Of a stretch of DNA of 41,141 nucleotides, positions 10,001-14,853 are shown in pieces. The position numbers and the translations under genes were made by a program. Under the pieces are notes generated by a model. The model worked only from the letters and a program-made list of their open reading frames with translations, did no database searches and was not told the origin of the DNA. Source of the DNA: Myxococcales bacterium (GTDB taxonomy: Bacteria > Myxococcota_A > Polyangia > Polyangiales > Polyangiaceae); the NCBI GenBank assembly GCA_003153495.1, contig PLYU01000333.1, positions 1 to 41,141 of the forward strand, given 5' to 3'. Position 1 is the first letter of the stretch; each line of letters opens with the position of its first letter.

Positions 10001-10189
10001 TCACCCGAGGTCGAAGTCCTTGCACAGCTCGAGGTGCGCGCGCTCGAGCGCGTCCCTGCGCGGGGCGGCCGGGTAGCCCAGCGAGCAGCGCTCGCGGTCC
10101 GCGTCGAAGTGGGCGCAGTCGTCGCACGAGAAGCGGAACGCGAAGCGCGCGGCTTCGTCGAGGAGGCGGGAGTCGACGGGGGTTCGCAC
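10001..10189 (-). CDS. Small four-Cys protein, possible metal site
   Basis: This 62-residue protein starts at GTG 10189. It contains 'FSCDDCAHFD', then 'ERCSLGYP' and a final 'LCKDFDLG', giving a C-x2-C-x8-C-x~23-C pattern that could bind a metal ion or cluster. It has no signal peptide. I recall similar short proteins in myxobacterial genomes, but no function is known to me. It is divergent from the S74 lipoprotein gene 91 bases away. Longer open frames on both strands here are GC-driven shadows. Coding is supported by the Cys spacing and the clean frame. Confidence 0.65.
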   Translation of the reverse strand: MRTPVDSRLLDEAARFAFRFSCDDCAHFDADRERCSLGYPAAPRRDALERAHLELCKDFDLG

Positions 10190-10280
10190 GGGACGCGGCC
10201 TGGAGAATAGCGCCCGCGGGGCTCGACGAGGCCCGCGCCGCGGCCGACACTGAGGGAAGTCGAAACCCGAGGAGCCCCCC

Positions 10281-11252
10281 ATGGCGCAGAACCTTCGATC
10301 GCTATCTCGTTCTTCTCTCGCCTTCTTCGGCGCGGCGTCGACCCTTGCGGTGGCGTGCAGCCAGGGCCAGATCAGCCAGGTCGGCTCCGATGCGTCCTCC
10401 GGCAACGACGGTGCGGCGCAGGCCGACGCCGGCCTGCCGCAGGACGGCGCCGCCGCCTGCAGAGCGGACGCCGATTGCCCGAGCGGAGACGTGTGCGGCT
10501 TCCCCCCGGCGGGCGGCTGCTCGGCGGCCGGCACCTGCTTCCCCGCGCCGGGCGCCGTGTGCCAGGCGTACTCGCCCGGATGCGCCTGCGACGGGACCGA
10601 CATCAACGTCGCGTGCACGGGGCTGCCGGGCGGCTCCGTCTCCAGGCCGCTGCTGCACACCGGAGCCTGCGCGAGCGACGCGGGCCTCGACGCCATGGCG
10701 CCCATGCACTGGTACTCGACGTGCGGGGACCCGGTGTGCCACGTCTCGCCCGACGGGGGCTCCCCCGACGCGGGCCTCACGGATGACGCGGGCGCCCCCT
10801 GCCCGCCCGTCGGGTCCCTCTGCGCGAGCCGCGGACAGACGTGCGGTACCCGCGATCCCAACGTGAACTGCGGGGCGACCGAGGTCTGCAGCGACCACGA
10901 CCCGAAGCTCGGCTTCGGCGGTTGCCCGATCTCGACCCGGAGGCTCAAGAACGGCATCGAGTACATCGACGGCGCGGAGCTCGAGCAGCTGCACGACGAG
11001 GCCCTGCGGATACGGCTCGCGACGTACAGCTACAAGCCGGAGGTCGGCGACGAGAACCCGAAGCACCTCGGCTTCGTCATCGAGGACGACCCGCAGAGCC
11101 CCGCGGTCGACCGCGTGCGCAGCCGCGTCGACATGTACGGCTACGTGAGCATGGTCGTCGCCGCCATGCAGGTGCAGGAGAAAGAGATCGCCGAGCTGCG
11201 TGGCGAGCTCGCCGCCGCCCGTCGCGGCGTCTGCGCCGGGCCCCGGAAGTGA
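10281..11252 (+). CDS. Lipoprotein with Cys-rich N-domain and C-terminal S74-type intramolecular chaperone
   Basis: This 323-residue protein starts at ATG 10281 after GAGGAG. A signal peptide ends '..STLAVAC-SQG', with the lipid-accepting Cys at 26. A Cys-rich domain follows (about 60-215, some 16 cysteines). From about 218 comes 'STRRLKNGIEYI..LEQL', then 'ATYSYKP..HLGFVIEDDP' and a C-terminal helix 'QVQEKEIAELRGELAAAR'. This order matches the peptidase S74/endosialidase chaperone fold. In characterised members a Ser and a Lys five residues later catalyse self-cleavage after trimerisation; Ser218 and Lys223 fit exactly. The product could release or trimerise its surface domain. The assignment rests on motif pattern, not a database search. 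Confidence 0.75.
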   Translation: MAQNLRSLSRSSLAFFGAASTLAVACSQGQISQVGSDASSGNDGAAQADAGLPQDGAAACRADADCPSGDVCGFPPAGGCSAAGTCFPAPGAVCQAYSPGCACDGTDINVACTGLPGGSVSRPLLHTGACASDAGLDAMAPMHWYSTCGDPVCHVSPDGGSPDAGLTDDAGAPCPPVGSLCASRGQTCGTRDPNVNCGATEVCSDHDPKLGFGGCPISTRRLKNGIEYIDGAELEQLHDEALRIRLATYSYKPEVGDENPKHLGFVIEDDPQSPAVDRVRSRVDMYGYVSMVVAAMQVQEKEIAELRGELAAARRGVCAGPRK

Positions 11253-12171: not shown

Positions 12172-12750
12172 CTACGGCGTCAGCCCCGGCGCAAAGCACG
12201 CGAGGTACACGGGGCCCTCGCCGGTCAGACCGGTGAAGCCGATCCTCGCCGCCTCGCACGGCCCGCCTACAAGAGGACCGCCGTCGGGATCGCTGCCGTC
12301 GACCTCCGCGGCGTAACACCACGAGGATGACGACTCGTCCAGCGGCGGGCACATCGCGCCCCGCGGCAGCGCGTGGATTGTGCAGAGGCACTGGTACCCC
12401 GCCAGTCCGTCTCCGATGCTCTGCACGGCGATCGACGGCACGAAGGGCTCGAGGCCCGGCTCGCCGCACTGGCGGCACGTGGCGATGTCCTGGGCGCCTC
12501 CCGTGCCGTCGGGGAAGCGCGCCGTGACCACGAAGCAGTTCGGAAGCCCGTCACCTCCGGTGGGCAAGGGCTCGGGCAGACACTGGATGGTCAAGGTGCC
12601 CGGGGGCGCGTGCTCCGGGTAGGAGGCTCGGAAAAGAGGCGCGAGCGACCCGGTCGAGCCGTCGTCCGTCGCGGTGGTCGATACGACGATCGCGCGTCCA
12701 CCGCAAGCCGTCAGAACGAGTAGCAGCGCGAGTCTCGCGGCGATGGGCAT
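12172..12750 (-). CDS. Hypothetical Cys-containing lipoprotein
   Basis: This 192-residue protein has a compact lipoprotein signal (MPIAARLALLLVLTAC-GGR) followed by a globular domain I do not recognise. It contains about a dozen cysteines, including 'CRQCGE', 'YQCLCTIHALPRGAMC' and a C-terminal 'CFAPG'. It should be exported and disulfide-bonded. Three nested ATGs (12774, 12759, 12750) could start it. The last gives the most typical signal peptide and is the only one with even a weak GGA upstream. The frame is open further, into an IS110 transposase remnant, which is an accidental in-frame join and not part of this protein. Confidence 0.7.
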   Translation of the reverse strand: MPIAARLALLLVLTACGGRAIVVSTTATDDGSTGSLAPLFRASYPEHAPPGTLTIQCLPEPLPTGGDGLPNCFVVTARFPDGTGGAQDIATCRQCGEPGLEPFVPSIAVQSIGDGLAGYQCLCTIHALPRGAMCPPLDESSSSWCYAAEVDGSDPDGGPLVGGPCEAARIGFTGLTGEGPVYLACFAPGLTP

Positions 12751-12894
12751 GGGAGGCATCCACGCAAGGGCCATACCGCCACGAAACGGTTGATGTTCCG
12801 CCGATCGGACGAGCAAAGACACACCATCGGTGGCTGCCCACGCCAACGCGGTAGGCATCGGCAAGTCGCGCCGCTCACCGGCCGCGGACGACCT

Positions 12895-13131
12895 GAGAGT
12901 CAGCGGCACAATCCCGCGCACGGTCGTGATGTAGTGCGAGTGCGTTTCGACGAGCGCACGGCGAACACCCAGCTCGAGCCGCAATCGTTGCCGCGCCGGA
13001 GACAGCACGTGGGCGAGCGGGATGTGGCCCCGCTCGACTGCCAGCGCGAGCACCTCGGCGTCGACGCGGTCGGTCTTCTTGCCATGATGGCGGCGCGCTC
13101 TTCGGGCCGAGAGTATCTTCGGGCGTCCCAA
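12895..13131 (-). pseudogene. IS110-family transposase remnant
   Basis: The minus-strand frame reads 'KILSARRARRHHGKKTDRVD' followed by 'AEVLALAVERGHIPLAHV'. It then runs 'ARQRLRLELGVRRALVETHS' and 'HYITTVRGIV'. This is the segment of IS110 transposases (DEDD group) around the K-TDRxDA motif and the Arg-rich helix that follows. Only about 78 residues of an expected 340-400 remain. Nothing of the Ser-containing C-terminal domain is visible, and the frame runs on into a lipoprotein gene. A shifted frame just upstream (about 13170-13240) reads 'ADGRVVQRRTVP', compatible with the transposase N-terminus, so the copy may also carry a frameshift. I see no intact ends. Confidence 0.75.
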
Positions 13132-13433: not shown

Positions 13434-13982
13434 CTAACGCTTCAGCGGCCGCTCGATCAGCACGGCCAAGAGCAGCGCCGGACCCCCGTGCGCTTGCCAG
13501 GCGTGGTTCGTGCCGCGCTGGACCACAACCTGACCCGGCTTCAGGCGTGTCTCGCTGCCTTCCAGGATCAGCGACACGTCGCCCTGAAGCAGGCAGATGA
13601 TGTCGATGGTGTGGGTCTCGTGCATCGCCGGGTGCCGTGTCTGATCGATCATGTGTCGATCGCCGTCGGCGCCGGCAAAGGCTGCTCGCATGGCTATGTC
13701 CAGGTTCGCCTTGGGCACGCCCTCGGGAAGAGGCGACACCACGAACCACCGCACTTGCACGTTGCCTGGACGCGGCCCGAGCACAGGGCGCTTGGTCCCG
13801 AGATCCTTGTGCTCGCGCGGATCGAGCAGGCCCGAGGCGGCTTCCTCCCAGATTTCAAAGAGACCGCCGAGGTTCGTATCTCCAAGCGTGGAGGACGGGC
13901 CGCCGTCGAGGATGACGACCGACTGCCCGTTCGCGTCGTCGCCCGTGATGACCCGCCGCATCGCTTCCTGAAACGAGGACAT
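13434..13982 (-). CDS. Cupin-domain protein
   Basis: This 182-residue cytoplasmic protein has a cupin beta-barrel in its C-terminal half. Motif 1 is 'HETHTIDIICLLQG', with the two His of HxxH-type metal binding. Motif 2 is 'LKPGQVVVQRGTNHAWQAHG', with the third His. The N-terminal half contains 'RRVITGDDANGQSVVILDG', a common opening in a group of small cupins encoded with oxidoreductases or regulators. A single mononuclear metal site is likely, but reaction and substrate cannot be assigned. It sits between broken genes: a CoA-binding fragment lies divergently 38 bases upstream, and the truncated lipoprotein follows it. Confidence 0.85.
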   Translation of the reverse strand: MSSFQEAMRRVITGDDANGQSVVILDGGPSSTLGDTNLGGLFEIWEEAASGLLDPREHKDLGTKRPVLGPRPGNVQVRWFVVSPLPEGVPKANLDIAMRAAFAGADGDRHMIDQTRHPAMHETHTIDIICLLQGDVSLILEGSETRLKPGQVVVQRGTNHAWQAHGGPALLLAVLIERPLKR

Positions 13983-14020
13983 GACCTTGCTCCCTCAGCT
14001 CGAGATACTGGCCTACTACC

Positions 14021-14239
14021 ATGCGTTCGACGCGGCCGTCCCGGGTCGACGTGTTCCGGCGCTCTCGGGACGTGCCCGGACACCTGGACGACATCCTGGC
14101 CAAGCAGCCGCGTGCGGTGTGGCTGCAGCTCGGCATCCGCAACGATGGCGTCGCCGCGCGGCTGACCGCCGAGGGGATCGACGTGGTGCAGGACCGGTGC
14201 CTGCTCGTGGAGCACCCACGCCGGTTGGCGCAACCCTGA
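14021..14239 (+). pseudogene. C-terminal half of a YccU-like CoA-binding protein
   Basis: The 72-codon frame reads 'RVDVFRRSRDVPGHLDDIL' and then 'AVWLQLGIRND', 'AEGIDVVQDRCLLVEHPRRL'. These are the second half of the CoA-binding (Rossmann-like) domain of YccU-type proteins, which are normally about 135-150 residues. The nucleotide-binding N-terminal half is absent; upstream sequence runs at once into the divergent cupin gene. The expected C-terminus is complete. A gene deletion that removed the promoter and first half is the simplest explanation. Confidence 0.75.
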
Positions 14240-14253
14240 GCCCCGCCGCGATC

Positions 14254-14853
14254 TTGCGTCCCGGCGAATTGGGGCCGCTGGCACTCTCCGACGCCGCCTC
14301 CACCCCCGACGCGGAAGGCAGCGACGCGTCGACCTTCGCGTGCTTGAGTCCGCAAGACTGCACAGTCCACACCCCAGCCGGACCGGCGGTGTTCTGTTGC
14401 ATCGACAAGACCTGTATCTACGGCCAGGCCGCCTTGAGTGTGCCCTGCTCCGACGCCGAGGTACAAACCATCCAGGCGTCGAACTACGACCAGTCGTGCG
14501 CCACGGACTCCGACTGCGTTGCAGTAGGCGAGGGCAACTTCTGCCTCGCGGGTGCGGGTAACTGCCCGTCCGCGGCGATCAACAAGAGCGCATACGCCGC
14601 GTACCAGGCGGACGTTGCCAGAACGCAGGCGGCCGTGTGCACCGCGATCTCGAGCTGTGTCGCGTCCTCCGGTCCATGCTGCCGCCACGGCACCTGCCAG
14701 ATGAACCTGGCCTGCTTCTCCCCCGCCGACACGCTGCCCGCCTGCGCCGACGCGGGAGGTGTCTGCAGCGCGTTCGTCATCCAGTGCGGCGACAAGGGCA
14801 CGGGGCCCGCGGACTCCTGCGCCTACTCCGACGAGATGTGCTGCCTCAATTGA
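14254..14853 (+). pseudogene. Secreted Cys-rich protein lacking its signal peptide
   Basis: The frame ends at 14853 and encodes about 200 residues. It starts with a typical lipoprotein-type linker ('LSDAASTPDAEGSDAST'), then a Cys-rich body with 'CLSPQDCTVH', 'FCCIDKTC', 'SCATDSDCVAVGEGNFC', 'GPCCRHGTCQMN' and 'YSDEMCCLN'. Proteins of this build are exported, yet no signal peptide or lipobox exists in frame. The frame continues upstream only by overlapping the CoA-binding fragment, which is the real coding frame there. The only candidate starts are poor (TTG 14254). I read it as a gene whose 5' end was lost at the junction near 14240; it may be unexpressed. Confidence 0.6.

Follow-up and report, generated by a model that had tools for sequence, protein, structure and literature searches.

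A divergent S74 domain, likely to be self-cleaving, at the end of a predicted cysteine-rich lipoprotein from a myxobacterium

The window, by which we mean the whole stretch of 41,141 nucleotides that was analyzed, comes from a Myxococcales MAG of 4.77 Mb in 382 contigs that is 78% complete. Our subject is one gene in it, the features of which are listed in Table 1. The G+C content of this gene at codon positions 1, 2 and 3 is 68, 58 and 92%, respectively, so that it looks coding in this G+C-rich genome. The first-pass annotation, made from the letters of the sequence, had proposed a lipoprotein that ends in an S74-type chaperone, with a Cys-rich region ahead of it, a Ser-x4-Lys dyad and a C-terminal coiled coil, and all of these elements were recovered. 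The LAVA-C26 lipobox, together with its n- and h-regions, agrees with the lipoprotein pattern rule. The region directly ahead of the S74 domain is a module with eight Cys (residues 148, 153, 174, 181, 188, 197, 203 and 215), which are conserved in the main type of the subfamily described below. Four residues separate Ser218 from Lys223, and 106 residues follow the predicted cut (323-217). The terminal helix presents an a/d heptad at residues 296, 299, 303, 306, 310, 313 and 317, of which Gln299, one of the d positions, never varies among the 38 rows of the subfamily alignment. As Cys215 lies three residues ahead of Ser218, the cut would coincide with the domain border.

Table 1 Features of the S74 lipoprotein gene, with window positions and the basis of each reading.
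Feature	Position	Strand	Basis
S74 lipoprotein gene (P0001, 323 aa)	10281..11252	+	323-codon ORF, ATG start, coding-type G+C
RBS-like GAGGAG	10269..10274	+	6 nt ahead of the ATG, read from sequence
Predicted signal peptide of type II with lipobox LAVA-C, residues 1-25	10281..10355	+	PROSITE-type lipoprotein pattern rule
Cys26, predicted lipid-modified, mature residue 1	10356..10358	+	pattern
First Cys-rich module, residues 60-130	10458..10670	+	C..D.DC..G..CGFP...GC...G.C...PG.VC....GCACDG...N..C.GLPGG....PLLH.G.C
Second Cys-rich module, residues 144-217	10710..10931	+	W-Y-x-T-C-G-x-P-V-C ... G-G-C-P-I, eight Cys
Predicted scissile bond Ile217-Ser218, Ser218 the putative catalytic Ser	10929..10934	+	PF13884 profile start at 218; Ser invariant
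Lys223, second member of the Ser-Lys dyad	10947..10949	+	invariant
S74 domain (intramolecular chaperone autoprocessing), residues 218-323, the 106 aa predicted to be released	10932..11249	+	profile and model
C-terminal helix bearing the heptads, residues 286-318	11136..11234	+	heptad reading and model

The setting of the gene is ordinary chromosomal DNA, and the neighbours with Pfam matches are housekeeping, transporter or enzyme genes (among them ALDH, DUF1993, MacB/HlyD, GcvP and SAM synthetase). Across the loci of the subfamily, no conserved neighbour was found beyond a few clusters that are driven by kinship or consist of shadow frames, and no prophage or tailocin cluster was seen around members in other genomes. 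Three other frames of the window can be mentioned here. Upstream of the S74 gene, the end of a minus-strand frame (10001-10210, -) resembles a small Cys-containing protein (FRFSCDDCAHFDADRERCSLGYP), the whole frame being without a Pfam match. The frame at 12172-13131 (-) joins a piece resembling an IS110 transposase (PF01548, 20.7 bits, below the cut-off) to a downstream lipoprotein-like MPPMPIAARLALLLVLTACGG, and is probably an IS remnant beside a lipoprotein gene. A further Cys-rich, exported-looking protein without a Pfam match is encoded at 13981-14853 (+).

The S74 assignment was examined by profile and by fold. When the whole protein was compared with Pfam, residues 218-268 matched positions 1-47 of PF13884 (Peptidase S74) with 24 bits (E 4.8e-5), so that the first profile position falls on Ser218, and residues 218-323 taken alone reached 27 bits (E 5.5e-6); the curated cut-off of this family is 22 bits. 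Among the 38 subfamily members, 27 matched the same profile at E<0.01, and weakly. Sequence searches of the PDB returned no S74 chain and, like those of NCBIfam with the subfamily, chance matches only, while PHROGs gave no match for the window protein.

For the fold, two monomer models were made with AlphaFold, one of residues 140-323 of the window protein with the 38-row alignment and the other of a compact member of the subfamily (L046). In the first model, the pLDDT is mostly 80-97 across the S74 part and falls to ~50-55 in places within the Cys module, which in the window protein bears an insert. VIA-align ranked all four solved S74 domains that were found on top for this model, namely MyRF 7dc3 (Z 7.7, 3.3 Å, 104 aligned), endoNF 3gw6 (Z 7.0, 2.8 Å, 96 aligned), T5 4uw8 (Z 6.5, 3.7 Å, 88 aligned) and GA-1 3gud (Z 5.7, 2.8 Å, 82 aligned), with the best unrelated row at Z 3.6. 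For the L046 model, in which the Cys module is well folded (pLDDT 84-96, residues 1-60), the same four entries again came first in the same order (Z 6.5, 6.2, 5.4 and 4.8), and the next row had Z 4.4. Named viral matches in Foldseek were mainly S74 and tail-fibre proteins, and both models present a small alpha/beta domain with a long terminal coiled-coil helix, as in the S74 fold. As every VIA Z is below 8, the fold claim rests jointly on the sequence match, the dyad and the ranking, by which the C-terminal part of the protein is assigned to the S74 fold family. The Cys-rich modules matched no named Pfam family, and in the structural searches the matches were taken up by the S74 part.

A contig scan with the window protein alone as the query found nothing. 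An alignment of the window protein with 13 homologues, taken from related genomes, brought 53 loci from GTDB genomes. The relatives come out as Myxococcales, Polyangiaceae, Sandaracinaceae and 'Deltaproteobacteria' MAGs, which places the window in the phylum Myxococcota and probably in the order Polyangiales; the protein is one of soil and water myxobacteria. The 38-row profile (A3), at E<=1e-20, then found relatives in 73 of 377 genomes of the phylum, about a fifth, and in 49 of the 235 of good quality. Judged by sequence, this is a divergent S74 subfamily whose members were seen only in Myxococcota and related "deltaproteobacterial" MAGs. The ATG start and the lipobox rule are present in 44 of its 73 reading frames. 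The first Cys-rich module turns up in further predicted lipoproteins, which have no S74, from this genome and its relatives (L019, L024 and L028) and is absent from the same-genus S74 homologue (L004, in G001); by eye, this module (GFP...GCACDG...N..C.GLPGG...PLLH.G.C) looks Kazal-like, with no significant Pfam family. A second S74 protein of the same genome (L001, G000 contig C106:24718-24873, -) carries the canonical SDRNVK (SDxxxK) and reaches 50 bits; it is also Cys-rich, and its start lies outside the available stretch. We found no literature on S74 in myxobacteria, subscription journals being mostly outside our reach.

Ser and Lys are present in every row of the alignment of the 13 homologues with the window protein, in all 38 rows of A3, which has just 15 invariant columns, and in 71 of 71 complete domains of the widened set, where gapped rows, being matches to other Cys modules or fragments at contig ends, were not counted as complete. 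Self-cleavage before Ser218 is supported by this strict conservation. A YxY pair is also conserved (Tyr249 as Tyr, Trp or Phe; Tyr251 invariant) and by its position probably corresponds to Tyr615 and Tyr617 of MyRF, which are together needed for correct cleavage (PMC8326128). Several points were counted against autoproteolysis. The Asp or Asn after Ser is usual for S74 (SDxxxK) and not strictly defining, but all 38 rows of A3 have R, T, S, K, Q, L or A in its place (Thr219 in the window protein). The motif of the GFIAQE type, which is the S74 consensus, reads GFIIED or GFIIDD in the subfamily, and the domain is short. In MYRF, the Asp of SDxxxK is strictly conserved (PMC3742443).

The first-pass annotation had also predicted a trimeric surface fibre, and this part found no support. 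In known S74 proteins, the client that is folded is a triple beta-helix or a beta-prism. Directly upstream of the S74 domain, we found the 8-Cys module instead, and no part of the protein showed likeness to a stalk of either kind. In four compact members (L041, L046, L061 and L063), only 12-15 residues lie between the lipid-modified Cys and the 8-Cys module, and mature cores of ~185 residues contain nothing besides the Cys module and S74, so that no part is left to form a fibre. The anchored part may or may not make a stable trimer, as the beta-helix known to hold trimers together is absent. Surface exposure should be considered an assumption, as anchoring that faces the periplasm fits equally well.

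We consider a lipoprotein that matures by S74-type autoproteolysis the best explanation and a fairly probable one, with the self-cleavage likely to be gated by trimerisation. The protein would be exported and then lipidated at Cys26. Three chains would then pair through their C-terminal helices in a coiled coil that gathers three S74 domains, as the fold and the example of MyRF suggest. The completed trimer would set Ser218 by Lys223 and cut Ile217-Ser218, a step to which the conservation of the dyad points. This would leave behind a lipid-anchored, disulphide-rich N-terminal part of 192 residues from Cys26 and would release the 106-aa C-terminal trimer. The anchored Cys-rich head would most likely be the useful product, and the S74 part a one-time tag for assembly and quality control. 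A client arginine was proposed as the folding sensor needed for cleavage in T5 and endoNF (PMC4690869). As the window protein has no beta-helix to supply such a sensor, trimerisation itself is expected to be the trigger, as in MyRF, where cleavage needs only the Ser-Lys dyad and trimerisation of the ICA while the stalk takes no part (PMC8326128), and where mutation of the leucine zipper impairs processing (PMC3742443).

The cut may also be real but serve for release, with the 106-aa trimer as an active shed signal or effector and the anchored part as a mere tether. In favour of such a role, the S74 part is better conserved than any other piece of the gene (identity with the same-genus homologue of 60%, compared with 54% in the 8-Cys module and 25% elsewhere), and members have swapped their N-terminal modules. 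Catalysis and assembly suffice, however, to explain this conservation, the S74 part contains no domain other than the chaperone, and in phages and Bdellovibrio the corresponding piece is thrown away, so that we hold a released effector to be unlikely. The same low probability is given to a domain that has lost cutting and was kept purely for trimerisation. Such a scaffold would suit a subfamily that has lost both the AQE-type motif and the Asp that follows Ser, and that has no beta-helix whose folding could be sensed. A scaffold would nonetheless have no need of a Ser and a Lys that are conserved throughout the complete domains and above most neighbouring positions. A chromosomally captured remnant of a phage or tailocin tail fibre, suggested by S74 being known mostly from phages, is highly improbable given the signal peptide and lipobox, the housekeeping neighbours and the dozens of genomes that hold the same architecture with no conserved neighbours, as well as A3 scans that found no relative in viral contigs or plasmids and one weak match in phages (E 0.008, 32% over 68% of the query), on which ground a phage or plasmid origin was rejected. 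An ancient phage origin of the S74 domain as such is possible.

Two S74 domains of the set, from two related large genomes (L111 and L112), lack a signal peptide. Viewed with their flanks, they end proteins of 182 and 190 aa (L113:7781-8329, +, and L114:7192-7764, +), belong to the same subfamily and follow a lasso-type leader, YVPPQLRHLGSVRxLTL (NF033521 16.8 bits, below the cut-off of 19). After the leader comes GDTGSLGDKAGTFMGGGTMMM or GPTGNNGDGPGQFQTGGGMMGMGM and then SSREAKEDI or SSREVKEEI, such that a putative core (G1...D8) directly precedes S74. Both proteins belong to a lasso gene cluster, in which the downstream genes encode an Asn-synthase-type cyclase, an HPrK-like kinase, a PqqD/RRE, a B2-like protein, a lipoprotein and an ABC transporter. 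A same-genus genome (G022, L127) holds a matching cluster (identity of 55% for the cyclase, 74% for the RRE and 59% for the ABC transporter), in which the precursor frame has 87 residues and no S74, and precursors in G013 and G109 end in ...GGNTMNM and ...AGNTMNM. A comparison of the two fused genes gives dN/dS values of 0.13 for S74, 0.59 for the leader and 0.50 for the putative core, the last from 21 codons only. The fusion of a lasso-type precursor with S74 is thus real, and its S74 part is under constraint. Our hypothesis is that S74 trims the lasso core, as a possible self-excising follower. No literature on lasso peptides with endosialidase chaperones was found, again with most subscription journals outside reach.

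A broader reading, which we put forward tentatively, is that in Myxococcota a divergent S74 has become a C-terminal tag of general use that excises itself and does not depend on beta-helices. Its carriers would be disulphide-rich lipoproteins and also, within one genus, a lasso-type precursor, whose core would have its C-terminus fixed by the cut. If the self-cleavage of the lipoprotein is borne out, S74 autoproteolysis would not be bound to the folding of triple beta-helices, and the subfamily, largely missed by Pfam's model in about a fifth of the sampled Myxococcota genomes, would offer a very small natural bacterial case for asking what triggers the S74 cut. The lasso fusion hints at a possible new route to finishing a RiPP core peptide.

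Three kinds of known system are closest to the window protein. The ICA of MYRF/MrfA (human MyRF, 7dc3), the top structural match, has a similar compact size, the Ser-x4-Lys spacing and the C-terminal coiled coil, and needs no stalk residues for its cleavage (PMC8326128). MyRF, however, is a membrane-bound transcription factor of the cytosol/ER with a beta-helical stalk and SDxxxK, whereas the window protein is a predicted bacterial lipoprotein. The MAT fibres of Bdellovibrio are likewise cellular, exported bacterial S74 proteins, and in Bd3182 the S782A mutation abolishes cleavage (PMC10769870). These fibres are trimeric beta-helix proteins of ~1000 aa with SDxxxK, unlike the subfamily of the window protein, which has no beta-helix, a mature core down to ~185 aa, a predicted lipid anchor and a Cys-rich composition. 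The phage endosialidase, the L-shaped fibre of T5 and the GA-1 protein (3gw6, 4uw8 and 3gud) share the fold, the dyad and the C-terminal position, but their long tentacles serve to fold a client (a beta-helix or beta-prism), of which an arginine is proposed to be necessary for cleavage (PMC4690869). The S74 domain of T5 has 133 residues, as compared with 106 in the domain of the window protein, which is without the long tentacle hairpin.
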